From positions 620,001-684,000 of the forward strand of contig NZ_CP114542.1 of the NCBI RefSeq assembly GCF_027271155.1: DNA of 64,000 bases, read 5' to 3'. This stretch comes from Brevundimonas subvibrioides. GTDB taxonomy: Bacteria > Pseudomonadota > Alphaproteobacteria > Caulobacterales > Caulobacteraceae. Below the pieces are notes generated by a model, which worked only from the letters and a program-made list of their open reading frames with translations, was not told the DNA's origin and searched no databases. The position numbers and the translations under genes were made by a program. Each line of letters begins with the position of its first letter. The first letter of the stretch is position 1. Of the stretch, positions 2,522 through 29,343 are shown in pieces.

Positions 2522-3750
<1,229 letters not shown>

Positions 3751-3858
3751 TAGGGTAACTCAGTCCGCCTAGGCAAGGATTTCTGTCATCCTGCATGGTG
3801 CCCTGGACAGGCGTGTTCGGGGTCGCACCCGGCCCGGACCACTTCAGGCGATCAGGTC

Positions 3859-7536: not shown

Positions 7537-10500
7537 CTAGATCCAGTGATCCTGGATATGGGTCGGCATCCAGGGCAGGGCTGCGTCGTGGGGGAGGGTG
7601 GGGCCATCGTGCCAGACCGCCGTCGGGTCCCAGATGTGCAAGCCCGCGACCTTGGGCGAGGTGTCGTCGAGCGGTTCGACCGGGCTGGTCGCGGGCGCGC
7701 CGTAGAAGGCGAAATTGGCTGCGGTCAGCTGGCCCAGCTGAACGTTATCGAGGGTCAGGCTGGTCGAGGCACTCAGCGTAATGACCACATTGGCCCCGAC
7801 CTGGGTCGCGCGTGCCTGGACGGCGGCGAAATTGGCATAGATCGACGCATCCAGCACGATGACCTCGCCGGCGGTCTGGAAGTCCGTGATCCGGTCGTGG
7901 CCGGCGGCTGCGCCCAGATGCCAGAAGGTGTCGGCCCCCGCTCCGCCGACCAGGACGTCATTGCCGCCGTTGCCGTTCAGCACATTGGCACCGGCATTGC
8001 CGATCAGGGTGTTGTCACCGGCATTGCCCAGACCGATCCGCGCCGATCCGACGAGGGCCAGCGTCTCGACATTCGCTGTCAGCCCATAGGCGTCCAGATA
8101 GCTGAAGACCGTATCGCCGCCTTCGCCCGCATTTTCGATCACTGCGTCACCGGCCTCGGTCACTTCATAGACGTCGTTTCCGGCCCCGCCGATCAGGGTA
8201 TCGTTGCCGGTCCCGCCGATCAGAGTGTTGTCCAGGGCATTGCCCACCAGGGTGTTGTCCAGGCCGTTGCCGATCCCCGCCCGCGCCGATCCGACCAGGG
8301 CCAGAAGCTCCACGTTGTTGGCCAGGGCGTAGCTGTCGAGGTAGGAATAGGCGGAGTCGAACCCCTCGCCGACGTTCTCGATCAGAATGTCGCCCGCCTC
8401 GGTTACCTCATAGGCGTCGTTGCCGGCCCCGCCGATCATCGTATCGACGCCGCTGCCGCCGATCAGGGTGTTGTTCCCGGTCGTGCCGATCAGGGTGTTG
8501 TTCCCGGCGTTGCCGATCCCGAGCCGCGCCGCCCCCACCAGGGCCAGGGTCTCGACATTGGCCGTCAGGGTGTAGCTGTCGAGGTAGGAAAACACCGTGT
8601 CGGTGCCTTCGCCTGCGTTCTCGACCACCCCGTCTCCGGCCTCGGTCACCTCATAGACGTCGTTGCCGACGCCGCCGATCATCGTGTCGGCCCCGCCGCC
8701 GCCGATCAGGGTGTTGCCCAGCGCATTGCCCACCAGGGTGTTGTCCAGGGCGTTGCCGAAGCCGACCTGCGCGCCACCGACCAGGGCCAGAACCTCCACA
8801 TTGGCCGCCAGGGTGTAGCGATCGACATAGGTGAAGACGACGTCCGTTCCCTCGTCGAGCGCCTCAACCACGACATCGTAGGCTTCCGTCACCTCGTAGG
8901 CATCGTTACCGGTCCCGCCGATCATGGTGTCGTAGTCGCCACCGCCGATCAGGATGTCGTCGCCTTCGTCCCCGTACAGGGTGTCGGTGAAGCCCAGCCC
9001 GTAGATCGTGTCGTTGCCGTCATAGCCGTGAATGACGTTCGCGCCGTTGTCGCCATAGAGGGTCTCGTCCGGGCTGCCGGTGATCGACACGGTGAGGTCC
9101 GAGAACTGCAGCCTCTCCATCCCGCGCAGGGTGTCGGTGCCGTCGGGCCCGCTGACCGTGGTGACCCCACCCGACGTCGTCACCGTATAGGCGGAGCGGG
9201 CCCCGGCGTAGACCGCCGTATCGATGCCGTCGCCGCCCTCCAGCGTGTCGTTCCCTGCGCCGCCGATGAGGAAGTCGTCGCCTGCCAGCCCTGCCAGCCG
9301 GTCGCCGTTCGCACCGCCCTCCAGTCGGTTGGCCCCGGCGTCGCCCTCGATGTCGTCGGCACCGGCGGTGCCGGTCACGTTCTCGACGGAGACCAATGTG
9401 TCGGTTTCAGTCTGGACAGACCCCAGCACGCCGGAATGGCGATAGGCCGCGGTGCCGTCGACCAGACGCACGACGACGCTGGCATTGCGGTCTTCCTCAT
9501 ATCCGGCGCGGAAGGTGTCTATGCCGGCCCCGCCGTTCAGAACATCATTCTCGTAGGTCGGGTTGAAAATGCCTGGCGTGCCGATACCGCCGAACAATAT
9601 GTCGTCGCCATCTCCGCCGACCAGCAGGTCCGCGCCCGCTCCGCCGTCGAGGAAGTCGTCGCCGCCCAGACCCAGAAGGGTGTCTCCCCCACCCAGGCCA
9701 TAGAGCGTATCGGACTCGGCTGTACCGGTCAGGGTCTCGGCCGAGCCGGTCCCGGTCAGGATGGTAGACAGCACGACGACCTGATCCGCGAACTGCAGGC
9801 GCTCTACGCCCGTCAGCGTGTCGACCCCGTCCGGGCCGGTCACTGTCGTCCGTCCCTGAACGGTGGCAATCGTATAGGCCGACCGGGCTCCCGCGAAAAC
9901 GGCCACATCGAGTCCGTCCCCGCCGTCCAGGCTGTCGTCGCCTCCGCCGCCGTTCAGGGTGTCGTCACCTCCGCCCCCGGCCAGGGCATTGCCCAGGCCA
10001 TTGCCGATGATGACGTTCGCCTGGCTGTTTCCCGTACCGGCGCGCGCGGCTCCGGTCAGCGTCAGGTTTTCGACATTGGCGGCAAGCGCATAGCTGTCGA
10101 TCCCGCTGACGACCGTGTCGACGCCGTCCCCGTTGCGCTCGTCGACCGCGTCCCCGACATTGTCGACGACATAGGTGTCGTCGCCCGCGCCCCCGGTCAG
10201 GGCATCGGCCCCGGCTCCGCCGTCGAGGACGTTGCTGCCGTCGTTGCCGTAGATCAGGTTGTTCAGACCGTTGCCGATCGCCTCGCGCGCCGGACCCACC
10301 AGCACCAGGTGCTCGACGTTCGTTGCCAGCGTATAGCTGTCCAGATAGCTGTAGACGATGTCCGTGCCCTCGCCGGAGCCCTCGATCACCTGATCGCCGA
10401 CATCGGTGACTTCATAGGTGTCGTCGCCGACGCCTCCGGTCATCAGGTCCAACCCGGTGCCGCCGATCAGCCGATCGTTCCCCGCACCGCCCAGCAGGAC

Positions 10501-10902
10501 ATCGTCGCCCTCTCGTCCCTCCAGCGCATCGTTGCCGGCGAGCCCTTCAAGACGGTTGGCCCCGCCGTCGCCCTGCAGAGTGTCGCCCAGACTGGTTCCC
10601 GTCACATTCTCGATGCTGACCAGCGTATCGGTGTCCCATGTCTGGTTCAGGGACGGATAGAAATAGGTCGCGGTCCCCGTAACGAGGTCGACGCGGACCG
10701 CCTGTCCGCTCCGCGCGCCGCTGGCGTCATCGCCGGCCCGCAAGGTGTCCGTCCCCGGCCCACCGTCCAGCACGTCGTAGTCCGGCGCGTCCCCCGCCGG
10801 CCCACCGTTCAGGATGTCGTTCCCGTCGAGGCCCTGAACGAGATCGCCCTGGTTCGTTCCGACCAGGGTGTCGGCCTGCGAGGTTCCAGTAATGGTCGGC
10901 AT
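7537..10902 (-). CDS. Large RTX repeat protein, probable type I secreted surface protein
   Basis: A 1121-residue, acidic, almost cysteine-free protein made nearly entirely of calcium-binding RTX nonapeptides (GGxGxDxLx type), with no catalytic domain seen. The ATG at 10902 has an AGGAG site 6 bp upstream; the longer frame upstream runs into a repeat element. Between RTX blocks are 81-residue repeats bearing YEVTEAGD, SYLDSYTL and NVETLALVG. The C-terminal part (ADTFWHL, DRITDFQ, VVITL, SLTLDNV, NFAFYG) is like the secretion region of serralysins, then adds a tail rich in Trp, His and Pro shared with the neighbouring protease. The T1SS genes at 18.3-21.3 kb are the likely exporter. It could be an adhesin or an S-layer-like protein; the choice is inference. 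Confidence 0.85.
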   Translation of the reverse strand: MPTITGTSQADTLVGTNQGDLVQGLDGNDILNGGPAGDAPDYDVLDGGPGTDTLRAGDDASGARSGQAVRVDLVTGTATYFYPSLNQTWDTDTLVSIENVTGTSLGDTLQGDGGANRLEGLAGNDALEGREGDDVLLGGAGNDRLIGGTGLDLMTGGVGDDTYEVTDVGDQVIEGSGEGTDIVYSYLDSYTLATNVEHLVLVGPAREAIGNGLNNLIYGNDGSNVLDGGAGADALTGGAGDDTYVVDNVGDAVDERNGDGVDTVVSGIDSYALAANVENLTLTGAARAGTGNSQANVIIGNGLGNALAGGGGDDTLNGGGGDDSLDGGDGLDVAVFAGARSAYTIATVQGRTTVTGPDGVDTLTGVERLQFADQVVVLSTILTGTGSAETLTGTAESDTLYGLGGGDTLLGLGGDDFLDGGAGADLLVGGDGDDILFGGIGTPGIFNPTYENDVLNGGAGIDTFRAGYEEDRNASVVVRLVDGTAAYRHSGVLGSVQTETDTLVSVENVTGTAGADDIEGDAGANRLEGGANGDRLAGLAGDDFLIGGAGNDTLEGGDGIDTAVYAGARSAYTVTTSGGVTTVSGPDGTDTLRGMERLQFSDLTVSITGSPDETLYGDNGANVIHGYDGNDTIYGLGFTDTLYGDEGDDILIGGGDYDTMIGGTGNDAYEVTEAYDVVVEALDEGTDVVFTYVDRYTLAANVEVLALVGGAQVGFGNALDNTLVGNALGNTLIGGGGADTMIGGVGNDVYEVTEAGDGVVENAGEGTDTVFSYLDSYTLTANVETLALVGAARLGIGNAGNNTLIGTTGNNTLIGGSGVDTMIGGAGNDAYEVTEAGDILIENVGEGFDSAYSYLDSYALANNVELLALVGSARAGIGNGLDNTLVGNALDNTLIGGTGNDTLIGGAGNDVYEVTEAGDAVIENAGEGGDTVFSYLDAYGLTANVETLALVGSARIGLGNAGDNTLIGNAGANVLNGNGGNDVLVGGAGADTFWHLGAAAGHDRITDFQTAGEVIVLDASIYANFAAVQARATQVGANVVITLSASTSLTLDNVQLGQLTAANFAFYGAPATSPVEPLDDTSPKVAGLHIWDPTAVWHDGPTLPHDAALPWMPTHIQDHWI
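7541..7734 (-). repeat. 3' end direct repeat of the two RTX genes, copy a
   Basis: This 194-bp stretch encodes the last residues of the RTX protein and aligns without gaps to 11115-11308 at the end of the protease gene. By eye there are 8 differences, about 96% identity, which is far higher than the similarity of the rest of the two genes. Several differences are silent. It indicates recent duplication or gene conversion of the tail. Confidence 0.9.
8000..8970 (-). repeat. Tandem 243-bp (81-residue) repeats inside the RTX gene
   Basis: About four head-to-tail copies are in register: the codons for YEVTEAGD recur near 8160, 8403, 8646 and 8889, exactly 243 bp apart. Each unit carries an RTX run plus a conserved spacer with SYLDSYTL and NVETLALVG. 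Diverged copies occur elsewhere in this gene and in the protease gene. Such tandem units are prone to change copy number. Confidence 0.85.
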
Positions 10903-10914
10903 GGCGGGCTCCTG

Positions 10915-11048
10915 GAGCATGATCGTTCGAGATGGACCCATGTCGTGGGGCCACCCGAAACCGTGAATCATGCTCTCTCTGATATCTGGAGCCTGATCCA
11001 CGGCCTCGGCGGAATCGCGCAGCGATTCCGCTTCAGCCGATCAGGCTC
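10915..11048. repeat. 134-bp bipartite palindromic repeat, copy 2
   Basis: This is the best-preserved copy. Module A (10915-10975) runs from GAGCATGATC to ATCATGCTC; module B (10989-11048) runs from GAGCCTGATC to GATCAGGCTC with an inner GGAATCGCGCAGCGATTCC hairpin. Its edge lies only 12 bp from the start codon of the RTX gene, just outside the ribosome-binding site, so it would lie in the leader of that mRNA if transcription comes from upstream. Confidence 0.9.
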
Positions 11049-11110
11049 CAGGTCGGCACGAAAATCTCCGCCCGCCCTGGCGGTGCAACGGCCTGCCTGA
11101 CAGCGTCGTT

Positions 11111-14100
11111 CTACATCCAGTGATCCTGGATATGGGTCGGCATCCAGGGTAGGGCTGCGTCGTGAGGGAGGGTTGGGCCATCGTGCCAGACCGCCGTCGG
11201 GTCCCAGGTGTGCAAGCCCGCGACCTTGGGCGAGGTGTCGTCGAGCGGTTCGACCGGACTGGTGGCGGGCGCGCCGTAGAAGGCGAAATTGCCCGCGGTC
11301 AGCTGGCCGACGGTGACATTGCTGAGCGTCAGCGACTGGGACCCGCTGAATGTGATCACGACATTGGCCCCCGACTGGGTCATGGCGGCCTGGACGGCGG
11401 CGAAGTTGGCGAACTGGCTCTGCGACAGGACGATGATCTCGCCGCTGCCGGCCGAGAAGTCGGTGATCCGGTCCCGGCCGCCGCCGGCCAGGTGCCAGAA
11501 CTGGTCCACGCCCGCGCCACCGGTCAGGATGTCGTCGCCGGCGTTGCCGTTCAGGACGTTGTTCAGCCCGTTGCCGACGATCGTGTCGTTGCCGGCCGAG
11601 CCCAGCCCCACCCGCGCTGACCCGACCAGGAACAGGGCCTCCACGTTCAGCGACATCTGGTAGGTATCGATGTAGGAATAGACGGTGTCGGTGCCTTCGC
11701 CTGCCGCCTCATAGACGAGGTCCCCGGCCTCGGTGACCTCATAGGCGTCGTTGCCGAGCGAGCCGACCATGATGTCGTTGCCGGCTCCGCCGATCAGCAC
11801 ATTGTTGCCGTCGTTGCCCACGATCATGTTGTTCAGCGCATTGCCGGTGGCGTTGAGCGCCCCGCCCACCAGGCGCAGGTTCTCGATATTGGCCCCCAGC
11901 GCATAGGTGACGTAGCTGAAGATGGTGTCTGTGCCCTCGTTGGCGTTCTCGTTCACGACGTCCCCGGCCTCGGTGACCTCATAGGTGTCGTTGCCCGCCC
12001 CGCCATAGAAGGTGTCATTGCCACCCCCGCCGACCAGCACATTGTCCAGCCCGTTGCCGACCAGGGTGTTGTCGCCCGCATTGCCATAGCCGGTGACGGC
12101 CGAACCGACGAGGCGCAGCGATTCGGTGTTGGCGGCCAGGGTATAGCCGCTGGCATAGGCGAAGACGGTGTCGAAGCCTTCGCCGGCCCCTTCCTGGATG
12201 TTGTCGGCGACCTCGCTGACCTCATAGGTGTCGTTGCCGTCGCCGCCGACCATGATGTCCGCGCCGTCGCCCCCGATCAGGAAATCGTTGCCGCCATAGC
12301 CGAACAGGACGTCGTTGCCGCCGTTGCCGTAGATCGTGTCGTAGCTGTCCGCTCCGCTCAGGACCTCTCCGCCAGCGGTGCCCACAAGGGTCTGGTCAGG
12401 GGTCAGGACGAAAACCTGATCCGAAAACTGGATCCGCTCCACGCCGGCCAGGGTGATCGTCCGGCCCCCGCCGGTCACCGTGGTGATGCCGTTGCTGGTG
12501 GCGATCGTGAACCCGGACCGCGCCCCGCCGATCACGGCCGTGTCGTTGCCCCCGCCCCCGATCAGCACCGCAGAGCCGCCGCCCACGGTCAGGACGTTAT
12601 CCAGCGCATTGCCGACCACTGTGCCGCCCGTGGCATTGGTCGCGCCGTTCCGCGCCCGACCGGCCAGCTCCACACGCTCGATATTGGCCGCGGCCGTGTA
12701 GGTCTCCAGATAGGAGTAGACGGTGTCGGTCCCTTCGCCCGCGGCCTCGGTCACCACATCGCCCGCCTCGGTCACCTCATAGGCATCGTCGCCCGCGCCG
12801 CCGATCATCGTGTCGTTGCCGGCCCCGCCCAGAAGGATGTTGGCACCCGCACTGCCGATCAGGACATTGTCCCCGCCGTTGCCGATCGCGACACGCGCCG
12901 ATCCCACCAGCGCCAGCCGCTCCACATCGGTCGTCAGGGTATAGGTGTCCAGGTAGCTGTAGACGGTGTCGTTGCCTTCGTTGGCCAGTTCCGTGACCAA
13001 ATCCCCCGCCTCGGTCACCTCATAGGAATCGTCGCCCGATCCACCGACCATGGTGTCATTGCCGGCACCGCCAATCAGAACGTCGTTGCCGGCCAGGCCG
13101 TTCAGCGTGTCGTTGCCGCCAAGTCCATAGATCGTGTCGTCGCCCGCCGTGCCCTGAAGCGTATCGGCATTCGACGTCCCATTGATCGTGGACGAGGCCG
13201 CGCCGAGAGTGACGAGCCGATCCGTGAACTGGATCTGTTCGACATTGGTCAGCGTATCGATGCCGGTCGCGCCGCCGTTTCCGCTGATGGTTGTGACCCC
13301 ATTGACCGTCGTAATGGTGTAGGCCGTCGAAGCGGCGTTGTAGAAGACAGTGTCGGATCCCGTCCCCCCGTCGATGGTGTCGCTTCCGCTACCCGTGTTC
13401 GCGGCGTCGGTTGTGTAGCCCTGATAGAAGCTGTCGTCGCCGCCCTCTCCGTAAAGCGACGAGCCCGTATTCACGATCGGCACGACCGAATGGCCTGAAA
13501 CGGACACGTGGAGCGTATAGAGCCCGCCCGCGGGAACCGCTTCGGTGACCAGCGTCGTGGTTCCCGAAACCCACTTGGAAACCTGAACATAGTAGACGCC
13601 GTTCGACGGGATGATGAACGTCAAGGCCGAGTCCGTCGAGTTTCCGGTGTCGGCACCCTCGGTCGTGCCATCGTCGTTCTCGGCCAGCACATTGCCGGCG
13701 GCATCGAGAATGCGCACAACGCTGTCGAACGAGGCGTTGTCGATATCGATCGTGATCGAAGATCCGGCCGCAGCCGTGAAGCTGTACCATTCAAGATTGC
13801 CGCTGCCCGTCGCAGTCACCGTGGCGTGCGGCGTATTCCCAGGGTCGAAGACGTCGTTCCGGACGCCGATGTCGAAGCCGTCATCAAGGGAAACGGCAGT
13901 GCCCTGACTGGAGTTGGCCGTGGTCTGGCTCTTGACGATGTCGGGAGCGCCGCCGCTCAGGCCACCGGCCCCGCTGTAGAAGGTGTCGTTGCCACCCCCG
14001 CCGAAGATGGTATCCACGCCGGATCCGCCGTAAAAAACGTTGTTTCCTCCGTCGCCGGTCAGGGTGTCGTTGAATCCGGAGCCGCGTAGGTTCTCGATCC

Positions 14101-15841
14101 CGGTGAGCGTATCGGTGCCTGCGCCACCGCTGGCCGTCCCGTTGGCAAGGCTGACGGTAACGCCCGATGTGGCCGTGTTGTAACTGGCGAAATCGATTCC
14201 GGCGCCGCCATCGATGCCGTCGTTTCCGGCCCCGCCAATCAGGTTGTCGTCACCGTTTCCGCCGGACAGTGTGTCGTTGCCCGACCCGCCATCCAGGACG
14301 TCGTTGCCATCCAGCCCGCTTATGATGTCATTGCCGCCGCCGCCGCCGATCGTATCCGCCAATCCGGTCCCGTTGATGGTTTCGTTCGTCAGATCGCCGG
14401 ATACCGTCAAGCCGCCCGTTGGCGCGGCAGCGATCGTCTGGTCCGTGAATTGAAGGAATTCGACGTTGGTCACAGTGACGGTCTGGCCGTTGCCGACGAT
14501 CGATCCGGTCTGGCCGTTCCAGGTGATGGAATAGGCCGCGCGCGCACCGCTGAAGATCACCGTGTCGGTCCCCAGCCCACCGTCGATTGTGTCGGTTCCG
14601 CCGTTCCCGGTGAGCCGGTTGTCGGCCGAGTTCCCGCGGATCGTGTCGTTGCCTGAACCGCCGATCGCATTCTCGATCACGGTGCCGGCCGCGATGGCGA
14701 TATTGCCGATCAGTCCGCCGACGTTTGAAAACGCCCCTTGCCGCAGGTCGATGACCTGGGCCTGGCTGTAGCCGGAAAAGTCGAACGTGTCGTTTCCACC
14801 GGCGTCCCAGACAGCGAAGATCAGGCTGGTGGTCGCCGAGGTCGCGATGAACCAGTCACGGTCGGCCGTGGAGTTGAAACCATACACCGTGTCCCCGGTC
14901 CGCGTCGTGGTGTTCGCGCCGTACAGCCGTTGAGCGGCCGCGATATCATCGAGCAAGGGCACTGCTGAATACTGTGCGGGGCCGTTGTTCAGCCTGAAAT
15001 TGCCACCAGTATTGCTCTCGCCAAAGTAGCTCATGATCGAGTACTGGCGCGAGTCCTCGTAATAGCTCGCATCGTTGGCGTAGGTGATCGAGACGCCTGC
15101 GGAGGCATTGTAACCGGACGGGTGGCTCAATCCGATGGCATGGCCGATCTCATGTGTCAGCGTCTGCTGTCCGTAGTTCAGCAGCGCCGGGGTCGTGTTG
15201 ACCGCGATGCTGGAGTTGACCCAGACATCCCCGGTCACCGAAGACGCGCTCGCGTTGCCCGGTTGGTAGGCGAAAGCTGCGGCGGCGCTCTGCCCGCTGG
15301 AATAGTTGCCGAACAGCATTGTGGCGTTGTCGCTGTATCCCGTCGCGTCCTGCACGCGGGTGAAGGTAATGTTCGCCACGTCCGACCAGGCCTGCAGAGC
15401 CAGCAGGACGGCGGATATCTGCGTCGCCGTGAACTGGGTGAATCCGGCCGTGTCGGTCGGCATGGTCGCCGGTGCCGTGCTGCGGAAGGCATAGGTGACG
15501 GTCGCCGCCGTTCCCAGGCCGGATGCCCAGCTCAGGCCGGAACGCGTCAACTGCGTGCCCGCACCACCGATCGTGAGCGAAGGCTTTCCGATGTTACCGC
15601 CGGTCCCGCCGCGATCGTCACCGTTCAGGAAAGCCAGTGGGCCAAAGTCCGTGCTGTCGAAATTTGCATGCGATTGACCGCAGCAGGGGCAGGCCGACGA
15701 CCAGGCTCCTTCGGCGAACAGGCCGCTGCCTGCCGATCGTCCCGTATCCATCACGCGGGAGGGACCGTCGTCCTGCCGGAGATCGAAATCCGGGGAGTTC
15801 CAGGTGTCGCGAGCCACAGCACCGTTCAACATCGATCCCAC
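11111..15841 (-). CDS. Serralysin-type M10 metalloprotease with RTX repeats and an internal PPC domain
   Basis: A 1576-residue secreted zinc protease. The catalytic motif HEIGHAIGLSH (residues 230-240) gives three zinc ligands and the catalytic Glu; the Met-turn SIMSYF follows at about 268. RTX blocks begin near residue 400. A PPC (bacterial pre-peptidase C-terminal) domain lies within them at about 655-750 (SASFDSVVRILDAAG-like and YYVQVSKW elements). More RTX units and a serralysin-like C-terminal region end in the tail shared with the other RTX protein. It is about three times longer than classic serralysins. The start is a GTG with GAGGAAAC upstream; an ATG three codons later (15832) is an alternative. 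The N-terminus holds an unusual CPCCGQSH cluster. T1SS genes and an inhibitor lie nearby. Confidence 0.9.
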   Translation of the reverse strand: MGSMLNGAVARDTWNSPDFDLRQDDGPSRVMDTGRSAGSGLFAEGAWSSACPCCGQSHANFDSTDFGPLAFLNGDDRGGTGGNIGKPSLTIGGAGTQLTRSGLSWASGLGTAATVTYAFRSTAPATMPTDTAGFTQFTATQISAVLLALQAWSDVANITFTRVQDATGYSDNATMLFGNYSSGQSAAAAFAYQPGNASASSVTGDVWVNSSIAVNTTPALLNYGQQTLTHEIGHAIGLSHPSGYNASAGVSITYANDASYYEDSRQYSIMSYFGESNTGGNFRLNNGPAQYSAVPLLDDIAAAQRLYGANTTTRTGDTVYGFNSTADRDWFIATSATTSLIFAVWDAGGNDTFDFSGYSQAQVIDLRQGAFSNVGGLIGNIAIAAGTVIENAIGGSGNDTIRGNSADNRLTGNGGTDTIDGGLGTDTVIFSGARAAYSITWNGQTGSIVGNGQTVTVTNVEFLQFTDQTIAAAPTGGLTVSGDLTNETINGTGLADTIGGGGGNDIISGLDGNDVLDGGSGNDTLSGGNGDDNLIGGAGNDGIDGGAGIDFASYNTATSGVTVSLANGTASGGAGTDTLTGIENLRGSGFNDTLTGDGGNNVFYGGSGVDTIFGGGGNDTFYSGAGGLSGGAPDIVKSQTTANSSQGTAVSLDDGFDIGVRNDVFDPGNTPHATVTATGSGNLEWYSFTAAAGSSITIDIDNASFDSVVRILDAAGNVLAENDDGTTEGADTGNSTDSALTFIIPSNGVYYVQVSKWVSGTTTLVTEAVPAGGLYTLHVSVSGHSVVPIVNTGSSLYGEGGDDSFYQGYTTDAANTGSGSDTIDGGTGSDTVFYNAASTAYTITTVNGVTTISGNGGATGIDTLTNVEQIQFTDRLVTLGAASSTINGTSNADTLQGTAGDDTIYGLGGNDTLNGLAGNDVLIGGAGNDTMVGGSGDDSYEVTEAGDLVTELANEGNDTVYSYLDTYTLTTDVERLALVGSARVAIGNGGDNVLIGSAGANILLGGAGNDTMIGGAGDDAYEVTEAGDVVTEAAGEGTDTVYSYLETYTAAANIERVELAGRARNGATNATGGTVVGNALDNVLTVGGGSAVLIGGGGNDTAVIGGARSGFTIATSNGITTVTGGGRTITLAGVERIQFSDQVFVLTPDQTLVGTAGGEVLSGADSYDTIYGNGGNDVLFGYGGNDFLIGGDGADIMVGGDGNDTYEVSEVADNIQEGAGEGFDTVFAYASGYTLAANTESLRLVGSAVTGYGNAGDNTLVGNGLDNVLVGGGGNDTFYGGAGNDTYEVTEAGDVVNENANEGTDTIFSYVTYALGANIENLRLVGGALNATGNALNNMIVGNDGNNVLIGGAGNDIMVGSLGNDAYEVTEAGDLVYEAAGEGTDTVYSYIDTYQMSLNVEALFLVGSARVGLGSAGNDTIVGNGLNNVLNGNAGDDILTGGAGVDQFWHLAGGGRDRITDFSAGSGEIIVLSQSQFANFAAVQAAMTQSGANVVITFSGSQSLTLSNVTVGQLTAGNFAFYGAPATSPVEPLDDTSPKVAGLHTWDPTAVWHDGPTLPHDAALPWMPTHIQDHWM
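11115..11308 (-). repeat. 3' end direct repeat of the two RTX genes, copy b
   Basis: Gap-free partner of 7541-7734, about 96% identical over 194 bp, and encoding the C-terminal tail of the protease. The two copies are 3574 bp apart in direct orientation, so recombination between them would delete one RTX gene and leave a chimera with an intact tail. Confidence 0.9.
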
Positions 15842-15934
15842 CTTGTTTCCTCGTTTCCACCTACCCTAGCGCGCCCGGACATGAGGGCAAGCCGGAGCGA
15901 TGCAACTTCGCGGGAACGTGTCCTCGCGTCGCCC

Positions 15935-18148
15935 TTAGTCAAGGGCGATCAGGTCGCCCCCGTCGAGGCCAAGGACCTGCAATGTCCCGCTGACCTGCTG
16001 GAAGGCAGCCATGATATGATAGAAGGAACTCGCGGGCGCGGGCTCGTCCAGGAAGGTGCCGTCGGGCAGACGCTTGTCGTGCCAGAGGCCGTCCGGTTCC
16101 AGATACAACCAGAGTGCGCGCAGCGCTGTGGCCGCGTCGGCCAGAAGTCCGGCCCGATCGCCGTCGCGTGCAGTCTCTGCGAGGATCAGCGACGCCTTCA
16201 GCCATTCGGTCTGGGGCCACAGGCGGGCTCTGGCACTGCGAAGGGTCAGGTCCTGGTTCATGGCATCCACGGCGACGCCCGGACGGCCCGCCACGCCGAC
16301 GCGACCGCGCGCGTAAAGGGTTCTGGCTGCCAACAGCGCCCTGTCGTCTCCGCGCGCCAGGCCATAGCGTGTCAGCAGCCACGCCCATTCGAACTGGTGG
16401 CCCGGCTCGACCAGCGATCCGTTCTCGCCGGCGGCGGGCGTCCAGTCCTCGGCGAAGAATTCACGCAGGAACCCGCCCTCGCGGTCGATGAAGATGCGGG
16501 TGGCGAGATCGGCAATCCGGTCCGAGAGCGCGGACCACTGGCCATCCTCATCGAAGGCTTCCCACGCGAGGCAGGCCTCGAGCAGATGCATGTGTGCATT
16601 GGACTGAAACGGCTGATCACCCGCCTCCGGGATGGCTCCGTTCGGCAGCGCACGCGCCACCAGGGCGTTACGCAACATAGCGGCCCGGTGTGCCAGATCA
16701 GATGGTCCGGTTTCCGCCTTGCGGGCGGCCGCCATGGCAAAAAGCACGAAGGCCTGATCGTAGACCATAGTCGTCTCGTCGAGCGGATGTCCGTCCGCCG
16801 TCAACAGGGTTCGCGCCTGACCGTCGGCTCGCATAAAGGCCTGAAACAGGTGGTCCAGACCTGCCGATACGATCTGCCGCGACGGCCCGGCCCAGCCCAG
16901 AACGCCGGCCTGGGCATAGACGTAGATTTGACGGGTCTGGACCCGGGCACGCCTGGGCCCAGCGACCGGCCGTCCCGACTGGCTGAGGGCCTCGGCGAAG
17001 CCGCCATTGCCGTTCATCCCGAGGCTCGACCAGGTCGGCAAGGCCCGCAATCGGAGCCATTCCGCAAAGCGTCGGGCCCCTGCCTCCAGCGGCTCAGGAG
17101 TCGTGCGGACAAAATCGAGGTGATTGGGAGACGTGGTCCTGACGCGGTCGACGATCCGCTTGACCCCTTGCGACTTCGACAGGTCGCACACCAGGACGGC
17201 ATCGGACTCGACGATGATGGCGATGTCGTTGACCCCCAGCGCAGCGACCAGGACGCCATCCGGTGCTCGCGCGAGGCAACGCTCTGCGTCCTCGAAGATG
17301 TGGATGCCGGTGTTGCCGACGCCACTCGAAGCGATGGAATCCCAGGCCCCGAGATCGGACCAGGCGAACGATACCTCCAGCACCGAGGCGAGATGGGTCT
17401 TTTCCATCACCGCATAGTCGATCGAGATTTTCGGCGCATCGGTGAACGCCGGGCCGAATGTCAGGGTCGTGCTGTCGCTTTCCGGGGGCAGGGCGGCCAC
17501 CGCGGCTGCCTGCACGCCCGGGGCGTAACGGGCCAGTTCGTCGCCCAATGTGCGGGCGCTGACGATGAAGTTGCCGCTGTTCCAGAGATAGCCGGCCTGC
17601 ATATAGCCCAGCGCCGTCTCTGCGTCGGGCTTCTCGCAGAAGGTCTCGATCGCCGACAATCCCGGGCCGGTGGGCTTGATGTAGCCATAGGCCGAGGACG
17701 CTTCGGTCGGCTTGATCCCAAGGGTGACGATCCTGCCGGCACGCGCGCCCTGGACGGCATCGAGGATCGAACGACGAAATCCCTCGTCGTCGGGGATGTA
17801 GTGGTCGGACGCCACGAACGCCAGAATGCCGTCGGGATCGTTACGCGCCACCCATGCAGCAGCTGCGGCCATGGCGGCGGCCGAATCGCGCGCTTCGGGC
17901 TCCAGCAGCAACTGCGCCGATGTGTCGATCTCGACCAGTTGGGCATCGATCACATCGCGATGGCCCTGCCCGGCAACGACGAGGAGCTTGCCTTCGTTCT
18001 CGACCAGCCTGGCGACCCTTATCACCGTGTCCTGGAACAGCGAGCGATTACCGGCGAGGCGGATGAATTGCTTGGGGCGCGACGGCCGGGACGCCGGCCA
18101 CAGGCGAGTGCCGGAGCCGCCACAGAGGATAACGGGATAGATGGCCAT
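15935..18148 (-). CDS. Mannose-1-phosphate guanylyltransferase / AGE-type sugar isomerase fusion
   Basis: A 737-residue two-domain protein. Residues about 1-350 are a ManC-type nucleotidyltransferase: GGSGTRLWPASRPSRPKQF at the start, then FVASDHYIP and FCEKPDAETA. It makes GDP-mannose from mannose-1-phosphate and GTP. Residues about 370-737 look like the N-acylglucosamine 2-epimerase (AGE) superfamily alpha-barrel, with EPGHQFEWAWLL and LWPQTEWLKASL; such domains in this context probably isomerise fructose-6-phosphate to mannose-6-phosphate. In classic type II ManC proteins the second activity is a cupin, which is absent here. The fusion would supply GDP-mannose to Gmd and glycosyltransferases. 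It sits between the T1SS genes and the protease gene, all on one strand. Confidence 0.88.
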   Translation of the reverse strand: MAIYPVILCGGSGTRLWPASRPSRPKQFIRLAGNRSLFQDTVIRVARLVENEGKLLVVAGQGHRDVIDAQLVEIDTSAQLLLEPEARDSAAAMAAAAAWVARNDPDGILAFVASDHYIPDDEGFRRSILDAVQGARAGRIVTLGIKPTEASSAYGYIKPTGPGLSAIETFCEKPDAETALGYMQAGYLWNSGNFIVSARTLGDELARYAPGVQAAAVAALPPESDSTTLTFGPAFTDAPKISIDYAVMEKTHLASVLEVSFAWSDLGAWDSIASSGVGNTGIHIFEDAERCLARAPDGVLVAALGVNDIAIIVESDAVLVCDLSKSQGVKRIVDRVRTTSPNHLDFVRTTPEPLEAGARRFAEWLRLRALPTWSSLGMNGNGGFAEALSQSGRPVAGPRRARVQTRQIYVYAQAGVLGWAGPSRQIVSAGLDHLFQAFMRADGQARTLLTADGHPLDETTMVYDQAFVLFAMAAARKAETGPSDLAHRAAMLRNALVARALPNGAIPEAGDQPFQSNAHMHLLEACLAWEAFDEDGQWSALSDRIADLATRIFIDREGGFLREFFAEDWTPAAGENGSLVEPGHQFEWAWLLTRYGLARGDDRALLAARTLYARGRVGVAGRPGVAVDAMNQDLTLRSARARLWPQTEWLKASLILAETARDGDRAGLLADAATALRALWLYLEPDGLWHDKRLPDGTFLDEPAPASSFYHIMAAFQQVSGTLQVLGLDGGDLIALD

Positions 18149-18265
18149 GCGGCCGTTTAGACATAATGCCGCGCTTCATGGAAGCGCAATTCCCGCCTCC
18201 GAAGGCGTCGAATTCTTGATCAGTTTACGATGTTCGTCAGTGGAGTGATGGCGTGCGGGCCGTCT

Positions 18266-19603
18266 CTACTGCTCTGACCCGCTGCGCCACAGGCCGCTCG
18301 TCAGGGGCTCGATCAGATATTGCAGCGCCGTTCGCTTTCGCAGAAGGACAACGACCTCCACGGGCATGCCCGGACGGATGTTCTGAGCGGACGCGCCGAG
18401 TTTCCGGAGTTCGTCCGGCGGGATAACGACCTCCGCCCGATAAAAGGTCCGGCCTGATTTCTCGTCGGTGAAACTGTCCGGAGACAGCCGCGTGACCGTG
18501 CCATGCAGCAGCGGCGTGGACCGTTCGCGCAGCCCTGGAAACTTGACCTCTGTGGACAGTCCCAGCCGCAGATTGTCGATGTCCGGCGGGTTGATCGACG
18601 CGATGATCACCTGAGAGGCATCCTCGGGCACGATGTCCATCAGGGTCTGGCCCGGCGCTATCACCCCGCCGACAGTGAAGGTGGTCAGCCCCACCACTTC
18701 GCCCGTTGCAGGTGCCCGAACGCGCGATCGCGCGATCTGGGCTCTCAGTTCGACCATTCGCGGCCGCAACTCGTTGAGCGAGACTTCCGTCTGTCTCAGC
18801 TGATCGGCAACGTCCTCCTCCATGGTCGTGGAGACACCCAGCATTTGCAGACGCGTTTGCCCGATGGTTTCGTTGGTTCCTGCGATCTGGGCACGAAGGG
18901 AGCCCAGTTCCCCGTCCAGCGCGACGGCCGACCGTTCCAGTGCCATGACCCGGGTCTGGGGCGCGAACCCGCGGGCCGCCAGACTGCGCACGCCGTCCAG
19001 TTCCCTTTCGATCAACTGCCGCTGCGCCAGGTTGGATTCGATCTGCCGCTGCAATCCCTCGACCTGCTGGTTCAACTGTCCGATCCGCTGTGTCAGCACA
19101 CCGGTCTCTGTCGATCTGCCGTTTCTCCGCGCCATGAACTGGAGCCGCTGCAGACGCATCGCATCCCGGGCCAGCACCAGATCGGGACCGACATAGGCTG
19201 CAAACTCGGTCGGCATGGCGATCGACGCCAGTCCATCCCGCTCAGCGATCAGGCGCGCGCGCTGCGCCAGCAGCGAAACGACCTGGCCCGTCACGCCGCG
19301 CTCGGTCGCCTGCAGTTCGCCCGTCGCAAGCTCTACGAGGATTTGTCCACGGTGGACGCGGTCGCCTTCGGCAACGTGCAGAGCGCTGACGACGCCACCC
19401 TGCTGGTGCTGCACGGCCTGCCGGTTGCCCGAAATGGCGACCTGACCCGAGGCATAGGCACCGGCATCAAGGGGTGCGATGGCGGCCCAGCCCAGAAACA
19501 GCACGAAGAACAGTCCGATCACAGCAGCGCCGATCCGCATGTCGCCCGACGGCGAATCGGACACCGGACTCGTGACCGGGGGGAGGGTGGGAGCATCGGT
19601 CAT
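18266..19603 (-). CDS. prtE: Type I secretion periplasmic adaptor, HlyD/PrtE family
   Basis: A 445-residue membrane fusion protein linking the ABC exporter to an outer-membrane TolC-type channel. One membrane helix lies near the N-terminus (IGAAVIGLFFVLFLGWAAIAPL, about residues 22-43), followed by a barrel-sandwich segment (VQHQQGGVVSALHVAEGDRV), a long coiled-coil hairpin (about residues 110-290), and the C-terminal beta-barrel with GMPVEVVVLLRKRTALQYLI, typical of PrtE/AprE adaptors. Its ATG overlaps the stop of the ABC gene (ATGA), so the two are co-translated. No TolC-like gene is in the window, so the outer channel must be encoded elsewhere. The substrates are probably the two RTX proteins. 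Confidence 0.92.
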   Translation of the reverse strand: MTDAPTLPPVTSPVSDSPSGDMRIGAAVIGLFFVLFLGWAAIAPLDAGAYASGQVAISGNRQAVQHQQGGVVSALHVAEGDRVHRGQILVELATGELQATERGVTGQVVSLLAQRARLIAERDGLASIAMPTEFAAYVGPDLVLARDAMRLQRLQFMARRNGRSTETGVLTQRIGQLNQQVEGLQRQIESNLAQRQLIERELDGVRSLAARGFAPQTRVMALERSAVALDGELGSLRAQIAGTNETIGQTRLQMLGVSTTMEEDVADQLRQTEVSLNELRPRMVELRAQIARSRVRAPATGEVVGLTTFTVGGVIAPGQTLMDIVPEDASQVIIASINPPDIDNLRLGLSTEVKFPGLRERSTPLLHGTVTRLSPDSFTDEKSGRTFYRAEVVIPPDELRKLGASAQNIRPGMPVEVVVLLRKRTALQYLIEPLTSGLWRSGSEQ

Positions 19604-21336
19604 TGCGGGCGTGTCAGCACCTGGGGAGAGGTACTGCGCAACCGCGCCAGGACGTCCTCTCGCCGGCCTTCCATCGTGATGGCACCATCGGCCATGGTCG
19701 CCAGTCGATCGACACGGGACAGGACGCCGGCGCGGTGAGCCACCAGGACCACCGCGGCACCCCGGGCGGCCGCCGAGAGGATTGCGGTCATGAGGGCGGC
19801 CTCGCCTTCCTGGTCGAGGTTGGAGTTGGGTTCGTCCAGAACGAGCAGCACGGGATCGCCATAAAGGGCGCGGGCCAGGGCGATCCTCTGTGCCTGCCCT
19901 GCGGAAACCCCCGATCCCATAGGCCCCAGCTGGGTGTCATATCCCTGGGGCAGGCGCTGGATGAGGTCGTGGGCCCCGGCGGCCCTGGCCGCCGCGACGG
20001 CCTTGAGATCGACGTCGCCCGCCTCGCTCCCGAGCGAGGCCGAAAAGCGCGATATATTGTCCTTGATCGAGCCTGCCAGAAGACTGGGTGCCTGTGGCAG
20101 ATAGCCGATGTGACGGGCCAGGTCGTCGGACGTCCGGGCCATATAATCCGCCCCGTCAAGCCGGATGGCACCGGACGTCGGCGCAAGCCCGCCCGCCAGA
20201 ACTCTAGCCAGGGTGGTCTTCCCCGATCCGCTGGGGCCGACGATGCCCAGGGTCTGACCCGGTTCCAGCGACAGAGAGATCTGGCGTATCTGCGGGGCCT
20301 CCGTGCCGGGTAGCCGAACGGTCACGTCCTCGACCTGCAGCTTGCCTTTCGGAGCCGGCAGCGCCGTCCGATCCCGATCGATGCCTGACGTCGATCTGAA
20401 AAGGTCCACCAGGGCTGACCAGCTGGACCGCGCCTGGTTCAGACCGGGCCAGGCCCCGACCAGCATTTCGATCGGGGCCACGGTCCGGCTCAACAGAACC
20501 GAAGCCGCGATGATCGATCCCGGTGAAATCTGGCCCTTCACGGCGAGAAAGGCCGCAAGTCCCAGTGAGCCGGACTGCATGACGAGTCTCAGGAACTTGA
20601 TCGCCCCGGAGTATTTGCCGCCGTTCAGCTGTGCGTCCGCGTAGTGCGCAACGCCGCTGGCGCGCTCGGTGATCTGTCGGTTTACGCTGGCCTGCCGCAT
20701 GCCAAGCGCACGCACGACCTCGCTCTGGGCGATGATGCCTTCCTGCGCCGCATAGGCAGTGGCTGTGGATTGGATGGCGCGCTTCAGTCTCGGTCGGCTG
20801 TCGCGCTCGTTGAGGACCGCCAGGGCGAACAGCAGGGCACCTCCGGCCATTGTCAGGATACCGATGGCCGGGTGAAGCAGAAAGCAGCATGCCAGATAAA
20901 GCGGTGTCCATGGCGCATCCAGCAGGGCCAGAATTCCCTGGCCGGACACCGCCCCCCGCACCGTATCGAACTCTCGCATCGCCTGTGTCGCCGCGCGCGG
21001 CGTCTGTATCTCGACAAGCCTTGTCAGGATGACCGGTGCCAGCAGGCGATCGAGCCTCAGGCTGGCTCGCAGCAGCAATCGCGCACGCAGCCAATCCAGC
21101 AGGGCCAGCGTCCCCAGGGCGAACACCGCCACTGCAGAGATCAGCACAAGCGTCAGCAGGCCCCCGGTCGGGACGACGCGGTCGTAAACCTGCATCATGT
21201 AGAGGGTCGGGGCCAGGTACAGCAGGTTGGCCAGGGCGCTGAAGACCAGCGCGCCGATCAGATGCAGGCGACAGGCTCGAAACGCCTCGGCCAGCGGCTC
21301 GGTACCCGGCTGTCTGGGAAGCAGGTGGCTGAACAC
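19600..21336 (-). CDS. prtD: Type I secretion ABC transporter/permease, PrtD family
   Basis: A 578-residue fused membrane and ATPase subunit. The N-terminal half has about six helices (ALVFSALANLLYLAPTLYMM and later spans) without a peptidase C39 domain, as in PrtD/AprD/RsaD exporters of RTX proteins lacking cleaved leaders. The ATPase half has Walker A GPSGSGKT, a Q-loop in YLPQAP, signature VSAGQAQRIALARAL, Walker B VLLVLDEP and switch VAHR. The signature begins SAGQ rather than the usual SGGQ, which is a tolerated variant. It forms an operon with the HlyD-type adaptor. An inhibitor lipoprotein is divergently transcribed 140 bp away. Confidence 0.93.
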   Translation of the reverse strand: MFSHLLPRQPGTEPLAEAFRACRLHLIGALVFSALANLLYLAPTLYMMQVYDRVVPTGGLLTLVLISAVAVFALGTLALLDWLRARLLLRASLRLDRLLAPVILTRLVEIQTPRAATQAMREFDTVRGAVSGQGILALLDAPWTPLYLACCFLLHPAIGILTMAGGALLFALAVLNERDSRPRLKRAIQSTATAYAAQEGIIAQSEVVRALGMRQASVNRQITERASGVAHYADAQLNGGKYSGAIKFLRLVMQSGSLGLAAFLAVKGQISPGSIIAASVLLSRTVAPIEMLVGAWPGLNQARSSWSALVDLFRSTSGIDRDRTALPAPKGKLQVEDVTVRLPGTEAPQIRQISLSLEPGQTLGIVGPSGSGKTTLARVLAGGLAPTSGAIRLDGADYMARTSDDLARHIGYLPQAPSLLAGSIKDNISRFSASLGSEAGDVDLKAVAAARAAGAHDLIQRLPQGYDTQLGPMGSGVSAGQAQRIALARALYGDPVLLVLDEPNSNLDQEGEAALMTAILSAAARGAAVVLVAHRAGVLSRVDRLATMADGAITMEGRREDVLARLRSTSPQVLTRPQ

Positions 21337-21476
21337 GCGGATCGGACTCCTTCCAGGCCACCCTAGCCGCTGGACGCCGTCTCATAAAGGTGGTGGCACG
21401 CCGGTCCCGTTTTGGCTATGGAGGACGGGCGGTTGTGAGCGCGGATCGCGTGGGACTCCGGACACGAGGACGAGGC

Positions 21477-21884
21477 ATGACTTTCGCTTCAGCCCTGCCC
21501 CTGGCACTGTGTCTTTCCCTCCTGCCTGTCGTCGCCGGCGCCTGTCATTCCAAGGAGCAGCCAGCCGTGTCGCAATCCCGGGTGCCGGAGCCGTCAGGCG
21601 ATATCGAGGCCGCAATCGGCCTGTGGGCTTTCACGCCGGCCGACGGATCGAAAGGTTGCGTCCTGGCCCTGAACCGGCAGCCCCTACCACATGGCTACGG
21701 CTTGCATATCGAGCATTGCGCCCTGGCGTCGCTGGCGGCCGCCACGCACTGGCGCCCCACGGCTCAGGGATTCGGGATCGCGAACGAAGCGGACTCGGTG
21801 ATTCTCGAATTCCGCCAGACTGGTGTCGATACCTTCGTCGCCGTCGACGGCAGCCTTCGGGTCGAACGCGCGCCGTCGACCTGA
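21477..21884 (+). CDS. inh: Lipoprotein of the AprI/Inh metalloprotease-inhibitor family
   Basis: A 135-residue protein from ATG 21477, with GAGG upstream. A signal peptide ends in a lipobox at LPVVAGAC, giving lipidated Cys23. The mature part resembles the AprI/Inh inhibitors of serralysins: a Trp followed by a strand (IGLWAFTPADG), two cysteines 20 residues apart (C61, C81) as in the family disulfide, HWRPTAQGFGI matching the family WRPTPDGL motif, and a final VDGSLRVER strand. Known Inh proteins are soluble periplasmic proteins that protect the cell from its own protease, so lipidation is unusual. The gene is divergent from prtD/prtE and near an M10 protease, as in apr and prt loci. The family call rests on motif matching by eye. 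Confidence 0.72.
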   Translation: MTFASALPLALCLSLLPVVAGACHSKEQPAVSQSRVPEPSGDIEAAIGLWAFTPADGSKGCVLALNRQPLPHGYGLHIEHCALASLAAATHWRPTAQGFGIANEADSVILEFRQTGVDTFVAVDGSLRVERAPST

Positions 21885-28998: not shown

Positions 28999-29062
28999 TG
29001 TCCGGGGCCGGACAGGCGGCTGTGGTCGATCCCGGCCGGTTCCGACCGTTCCGTGAAACCTC

Positions 29063-29196
29063 GAGCATGATCGTTGGAGGTGGACCCCCGTCGTGGGTCC
29101 AGCCGAAAGCGTGGATCAGGCTCTCGCCCATCTCTGGAGCCTGATTCACGGCATCGGTGGAATCGCGAAGCGTTTCCCCCTCAGCCGATCAGGCTC
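29063..29196. repeat. 134-bp bipartite palindromic repeat, copy 3
   Basis: Same layout and length as copies 1 and 2. Module A occupies 29063-29123 (GAGCATGATC to GATCAGGCTC); module B occupies 29137-29196 (GAGCCTGATT to GATCAGGCTC). The inner hairpin of module B is mutated on its right arm (GCGTTTCC). It lies between the OmpA terminator and the KpsS-like gene. Confidence 0.88.
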
Positions 29197-29343
29197 TTGC
29201 CGATTGCGCGCGCTTTTTTGGACAAGCCGGTTGATCCGCGCGGTTCCGGGCGCGACAAGGAGACCCATGTCAAAGCGCCGCGCCTCGAGGATCGTGATTC
29301 CGACCGAAGCCGCTTTCGACGTCCGTGCGAGTCACGCCTGAGC

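Follow-up and report, generated by a model that had tools for sequence, protein, structure and literature searches.

How does a bacterium that exports a very long protease protect itself from its own enzyme? The usual account of such self-protection combines a zymogen with a periplasmic inhibitor. The question arises afresh for a locus of Brevundimonas subvibrioides that we analyzed within a window of 64,000 nucleotides (nt; positions 620,001 to 684,000 of contig NZ_CP114542.1) from a 2.97 Mb single-contig genome: here a 1576-residue serralysin-type protease of the M10 family and the transporter and adaptor of a type I secretion system (T1SS) are accompanied by a small inhibitor of the Inh/AprI family, encoded divergently from the prtD gene and equipped with an apparent signal peptide and lipobox. 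The inhibitor gene contains a second in-frame start, with a Shine-Dalgarno (SD) sequence of its own, downstream of the lipobox, and on balance we lean, if only slightly, toward the view that this is a gene with two candidate starts that would yield a predicted outer-membrane lipoprotein and an unlipidated cytoplasmic inhibitor.

Is the small protein indeed a member of this family? The gene (21477 to 21884, + strand; 135 residues in the long form) matches the Pfam Inh profile (PF02974) at 30 bits, above the cut-off of 25 (E = 5.5e-7). The initial annotation had proposed the assignment from the spacing of two cysteines and a WRPT motif; the two barrel cysteines and WRP are present. Direct comparison of the protein with sequences of the Protein Data Bank gave no matches; a profile of the inhibitor family compared with solved structures retrieved AprI (2.6e-12) and the Erwinia inhibitor (9.7e-12). 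The predicted fold is an eight-stranded beta barrel to which, among the structures listed by the comparison, Omp19 and APRin are nearest, and the barrel cysteines, C61 and C81, are invariant in sets of 17 and 19 sequences. The profile match, the family profile and the predicted fold together make membership in the Inh/AprI family a sound conclusion, and the NCBI record for a Brevundimonas relative already bears the name AprI/Inh family inhibitor.

Where, then, would this protein reside, and could more than one form of it be made? The first start, the ATG at 21477, is preceded by AGGA (21467 to 21470) and opens a frame in which a lipobox, VVAGAC, can be recognized by eye, with the cysteine codon at 21543 to 21545 (+) and histidine as the +2 residue of the mature protein. 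Further downstream, AAGGAG (21552 to 21557, +) precedes by 9 nt an in-frame GTG, and the resulting AAGGAG-N9-GTG-TCG (21552 to 21569) lies between the lipobox and the barrel; the predicted short form that would start here has 105 residues (21567 to 21884, +), begins with M-SQSRVPEPSGDIEAAIGLW... and contains no signal peptide. The stretch from the lipobox cysteine to the barrel spans about 25 residues and is modelled with low confidence; an N-terminal segment of the inhibitory type is present, and of the two forms only the predicted short one would leave its N terminus unblocked. Among relatives (labels beginning with G denote genomes, with L loci and with P public protein records), G139 has an identical AAGGAG, likewise 9 nt ahead of GTG, and the other genes possessing an internal start use ATG, for example GAGGAGGGTGTC-ATG-AGC in G278 and GGGAGGAACCTCG-ATG-ACG in G282. 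The lipobox, again by inspection, varies in sequence (LTSAC in G139, LTGGC in G210, AAGAC in others), and its cysteine is present in 20 of the 24 inhibitor genes that we call protease-linked, that is, located divergently beside prtDE or an M10 gene; it is lacking in G278, G199, G236 and G200.

Is the association of inhibitor and protease peculiar to one genome? Searched as a whole, the window genome matches Inh exactly once (30.3 bits), and M10 likewise once at E <= 1e-10. When 131 genomes from the genus were surveyed, 36 had a PF02974 match (E <= 0.01; 34 above the cut-off, G210 and G243 below it) and 62 an M10 catalytic domain, with M10 present in 29 of the 36 Inh-bearing genomes versus 33 of the 95 Inh-free ones (Fisher test, 3.6e-6, kinship ignored). 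The co-occurrence that the initial annotation had suggested surveying is thereby supported, with some looseness: the inhibitor occurs without M10 in 7 of the 36 genomes, 3 of which have an unlike, longer Inh protein. Given that there are only seven such genomes, the possibility that Inh has spread without its protease was rejected. A family-specific Inh profile, which recovered 36 genomes, adds four more at E < 1e-10 (G267, G230, G245 and G286), all with M10; it missed G037, G107, G147, G217 and G264, and a weak match in G221 was not counted. In the combined set of 40 genomes, 17 have the Inh gene in divergent orientation to prtDE and 7 have it in divergent orientation to an M10 gene at a distance of up to about 1.2 kb; in 11 (group C) it precedes the gene of a different ABC ATPase, and in the remaining 5 it is located elsewhere. 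Since the divergent arrangement with prtDE or M10 is found in 24 of the 40, diverged species share the pairing that the window shows. Outside the bacterial family to which the genus belongs, Inh is rare, with 6 of 385 genomes positive in a class-wide search that served this count only.

Several observations on individual loci belong here. Three genomes without an M10 match encode longer exported proteins (L100, L101, L103) in which a second Inh-like stretch, seen by eye, precedes the Inh domain. The 11 lipidated Inh genes of group C (L102, L104, L105, L107, L108, L111, L113, L116, L119, L120, L121) have a 21-residue linker, no prtDE in the fetched stretch and no qualifying internal start as defined below; 10 of these 11 genomes have an M10 protease elsewhere. 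In L093 (G225), the M10 match consists of two pieces that do not share a reading frame, so that the gene appears broken, while Inh and prtDE are retained beside it.

Could the inhibitor be aimed at foreign or host proteases rather than at the neighboring M10 enzyme? This is what has been reported for Omp19, which, according to one study, inhibits host proteases and for which no Brucella metalloprotease target was found (PMC9486555), and the seven Inh-bearing genomes without M10 would fit such a role. However, neither the genus-wide co-occurrence nor the divergent adjacency to prtDE or M10 would be expected under this explanation, and we regard it as quite improbable.

What can be read in the DNA itself is family membership, linkage to the protease and exporter genes, a lipobox motif and a second start with its SD; is this second start there by chance? 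We applied a strict rule that demands an in-frame start, an SD 4-mer at 3 to 10 nt and a second codon permitting removal of the initiator methionine by methionine aminopeptidase (MetAP). The rule holds for 21 of the 24 protease-linked inhibitor genes, for none of the 13 unlinked lipidated Inh genes and for 2 to 4% of random coding windows; it was not applied to the Inh genes with a double stretch (G037, G147, G264), which have no lipobox. Within coding sequence of the same loci, an SD core precedes 8.7% of the internal ATG codons (n = 2864) and 7.2% of the internal GTG codons (n = 4159). When genes are grouped into clusters, 13 of 16 linked clusters qualify; among 44 clusters of other lipoproteins, the share is 8% if any start is accepted and 2.3% if ATG is required, which makes an internal SD and start about tenfold commoner in the linked inhibitors. 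In this control, 3.5 of 44 clusters qualify with clusters averaged and 4 of 44 in the cluster comparison, for which the clusters were grouped by hand; clusters are taken as independent, and the control lipoproteins were picked by a simple motif rule under which some Inh genes went undetected as well; a smaller initial control (11 clusters, 1 with a start) is superseded by this set. Two broader interpretations were rejected on these grounds: a qualifying internal start is not a common trait of lipoproteins of the genus (about 8% of the 44 clusters), nor is it common in Inh genes when the same taxonomic family is sampled beyond the genus, where 2 of 20 qualify (20 of 22 loci, with L013 and L014 left out). 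All four genes that were found after the pattern had been noticed (L131, L171, L138, G267) have the internal start.

The most serious competing explanation is that only the lipoprotein is made, as an Omp19-like tethered guard of the periplasm against leaked protease, with the internal start unused. The presence of the lipobox in most of the linked genes and the conservation of the upstream part as coding sequence are compatible with this possibility, and so are precedents found in the literature, namely the periplasmic Inh of Erwinia, a presumed guard against leakage (PMC3034196), and the outer-membrane-anchored Omp19, a member of family I38 (PMC9486555). Random synonymous recoding with the protein held fixed also speaks for it: 20 qualifying genes were tested, and for 17 of them a qualifying start arises with a probability of 0.057 to 1.0, as opposed to 0.001 to 0.003 in G049, G002 and G254. 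Because recoding often recreates the SD in those 17 genes, codon choice alone is weak evidence, and the internal SD may there have a purely synonymous-codon explanation. A single shared amino-acid motif, though, fails as an explanation, because the SD, which lies 5 to 9 nt before the start, occurs in two codon registers (in 9 genes its GGA is read as a glycine codon, in 13 it is out of that frame) and encodes GD, GA, GN, GG, KE, RE, EE, ED or ET depending on the lineage. These two registers, the excess over other lipoproteins and the complete lack of qualifying starts in the unlinked lipidated Inh genes are all at odds with an unused start, and the lipoprotein-only explanation is, to us, unlikely but by no means negligible.

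A different function for the internal SD-like sequence can be envisaged as well. Pauses shortly after signal peptides have been proposed, and this sequence, located at just such a place, might cause a translational pause that aids Sec engagement and lipoprotein processing, the ATG that follows being incidental. Such a pause would leave unexplained why an ATG or GTG with a second codon for Ser, Thr, Pro or Gly follows within 5 to 9 nt, and why a qualifying start is missing from the 11 group C Inh genes and from most other lipoproteins. We consider this explanation improbable.

Conversely, could the short cytoplasmic form be the only real product, with the upstream part serving as an untranslated leader and no lipoprotein made? 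Public gene calls of two close relatives (P0002 and P0003, 105 residues) begin at the aligned internal position, as do the calls P0007 and P0014, with first-site starts called in longer sister records, P0004 and P0013 among them; P0015, which starts near the internal position and has no longer sister in the set, was not counted. Some contigs are short (1,087 bases for P0007) and, for this reason, a few of the internal-site calls may reflect contig ends. Against an untranslated leader, the first ATG has its own SD, and in six compared pairs (one gene used twice) the segment upstream of the internal start is of equal length and keeps the hydrophobic core and the lipobox, with changes mostly at third positions (25/18/41). 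By these signs the upstream region is genuine coding sequence, and the short form as the sole product is highly improbable.

The two-form interpretation can be spelled out as follows. We infer that both starts are used, that their products occupy two locations and that the neighboring protease is inhibited. During synthesis of the 1576-residue protease, the catalytic domain would be made first and the C-terminal secretion signal last; because the signal comes last, the catalytic domain would already be present in the cytoplasm by the time export could start. The short form, upon loss of methionine, would expose a free N-terminal serine and could enter the protease active site as APRin does. 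In APRin/AprI, Ser1 is separated from the barrel tryptophan by 15 residues; the corresponding distance in the window short form is 19 residues, and it ranges from 15 to 25 across the qualifying genes (starting from Ser, Thr, Pro or Gly). Inhibitors of this family are described in two papers as blocking the protease by their first five residues (PMC9486555, PMC3034196), and a zinc-NH2 bond of AprI is announced in the title of Hege 2001, cited in PMC9486555. A lipidated N terminus, being blocked, would be unable to make such a bond. The long form, anchored at the outer membrane, would act via the linker and the barrel instead, and catch protease that has leaked into the periplasm or to the cell surface or has come back there. 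The complete scheme of a dual-compartment antidote, in which a lipidated envelope guard is complemented by a cytoplasmic form whose MetAP-exposed Ser or Thr plugs the zinc site, seems to us as apt to be right as wrong. The membrane-tethered guard suggested by the initial annotation is compatible with the lipobox read by eye, but the tethered form is probably not the only product, because a second in-frame start follows the lipobox.

Several facts weigh against the two-form interpretation. The rule was formed on the first 19 genes, and the held-out set comprises four genes (two new clusters and a sister of G243). Three linked genes do not comply: G269 has no SD, G083 has histidine as the second codon and G159, in a genome without M10, has no qualifying start. 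Among the unlinked genes, G202 has an ATG with an SD and fails solely by its second codon, arginine. The recoding test described above goes in the same direction, and the 9 nt between the SD and the GTG in the window are at the long end of spacing. Serralysins, according to PMC3034196, are zymogens activated outside the cell, which lessens the need for a cytoplasmic guard, and the barrel disulphide is not expected to form in the cytoplasm. The four linked genes without a lipobox (G278, G199, G236 and G200) would give a protein with a free N terminus anyway, after the action of signal peptidase; because they still keep the internal start, they favor the short form as a cytoplasmic guard, a role that fits them, over a start serving to replace a blocked terminus, which does not. 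Translation in two forms, their localization and the inhibition itself are, at this point, predictions made from sequence.

How does the rest of the locus bear on this picture? The exporter pair posited in the initial annotation is there, encoded on the - strand at 18266 to 21336: a PrtD-type ABC transporter (19600 to 21336; TIGR01842, 555.6 bits, cut-off 510.15), the only place in the genome above the PrtD cut-off in a whole-genome profile search, and a membrane-fusion protein (adaptor) of the PrtE/HlyD type (18266 to 19603; TIGR01843, 355.5 bits, cut-off 208.65). The same annotation called the system self-contained, which it is not, because the window contains no match to the outer-membrane channel of the OEP family; three OEP genes are located elsewhere in the genome. 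Many PrtDEF-type systems use an unlinked outer-membrane channel. One such case, RsaFb, a channel unlinked to its secretion system, is described in PMC3034196.

The protease (11111 to 15841, - strand; start codon uncertain) was likewise correctly recognized, with its Peptidase_M10_C region (E = 2.7e-36), 13 RTX stretches and a PPC domain (PF04151, E = 1.4e-9). It passes the NCBIfam Zn_serralysin model (534.5 bits, cut-off 500), and its translation contains HEIGHAIGLSHP and the Met-turn SIMSYF, in agreement with the HExxHxxGxxH motif and Met-turn of serralysins (M10B). The top named NCBIfam model is that of SapA (NF051884), the S-layer-associated protease of Caulobacter, a likeness that consists in this best score, 581.5 bits over the catalytic domain, far below the equivalog cut-off of 1200; the SapA model has 644 positions as compared with 1576 residues and a PPC domain here. 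The statement that the protease is about three times larger than usual stands relative to the typical RTX protease of ~480 residues, a size given in PMC3034196, but not within the genus, where M10 open frames mostly span about 700 to 2200 codons. A CxxC-like motif (SSACPCCGQSH) is located in the pro-region, ahead of the catalytic domain; among 30 loci examined (L032 to L061), such a motif precedes the M10 domain in 16 of 16 genus loci and 2 of 14 loci of other genera, and is possibly a latency or metal-binding motif.

A second RTX protein (7537 to 11001, - strand), likely a second T1SS substrate, shares its last 51 residues with the protease end at 98% identity. This C terminus, encoded at 7537 to 7758 and 11111 to 11332, is placed after the usual RTX end and occurs at those two genomic places only (E <= 0.01); it may represent a common export signal or a trace of gene conversion. 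The gene between the exporter pair and the protease (15935 to 18148, - strand) encodes a fusion of mannose-1-phosphate guanylyltransferase (PF00483, 1.8e-32) with N-acylglucosamine 2-epimerase (PF07221, 2.4e-63), and genes resembling those for capsule export can be seen by eye beyond the second RTX gene; on this account the protease row seems to be situated in a polysaccharide locus. A 144-nt repeat with inverted parts occurs at window positions 3611 to 3754, 10909 to 11052 and 29057 to 29200, the other copies being 82 to 85% alike to the first, and its 31-nt core has 11 exact genomic occurrences and 3 more with 2 to 3 mismatches. As the core recurs across its own genome, this is a dispersed repeat element.

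What would follow if the two-form interpretation is correct? We found no earlier description of an internal start in an Inh gene in the titles and abstracts of the open-access literature. Within that same scope, no I38 inhibitor was reported to exist in two translational forms, and no lipidated one to have its own serralysin alongside, so that the present case would be the first of either kind. A T1SS protease of great length would then call for protection of the cytoplasm as well, and lipidation, which blocks an AprI-type N terminus, could be combined with an unlipidated form of the inhibitor. Database records, as some of the public gene calls already do, would show one half of such genes.

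Among the systems available for comparison, staphostatins, proteins unrelated to Inh, act in the cytoplasm, that is, in a single location. They offer a parallel in working, being co-expressed with the secreted staphopains and protecting the producer, as stated in PMC8443034. For the two starts, a close likeness is to bacterial proteins such as YfhG and PagC of Salmonella, for which N-terminal proteoforms arising from in-frame internal starts are reported in PMC11005335, where it is also noted that a truncated lipoprotein proteoform may lose its outer-membrane location; those proteoforms involve neither a protease inhibitor nor a logic of self-protection. Within the family itself (MEROPS I38, PF02974), to which both APRin/AprI of Pseudomonas aeruginosa and Inh of Erwinia chrysanthemi belong, the Erwinia protein is described in PMC3034196 as a Sec-exported soluble periplasmic protein, whereas the window inhibitor has a lipobox and extra linker residues before the inhibitory segment, with the second start and its SD in between. 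Lipidation as such, which the initial annotation had presented as new, is not a novelty and was rejected as one, given that Omp19 of Brucella is an outer-membrane lipoprotein of I38; its disordered N-terminal region (residues 20 to 60) is required for inhibition, and no metalloprotease of Brucella is known as its target (PMC9486555). The inhibitor gene of the window, by contrast, adjoins the genes for a serralysin and its exporter.
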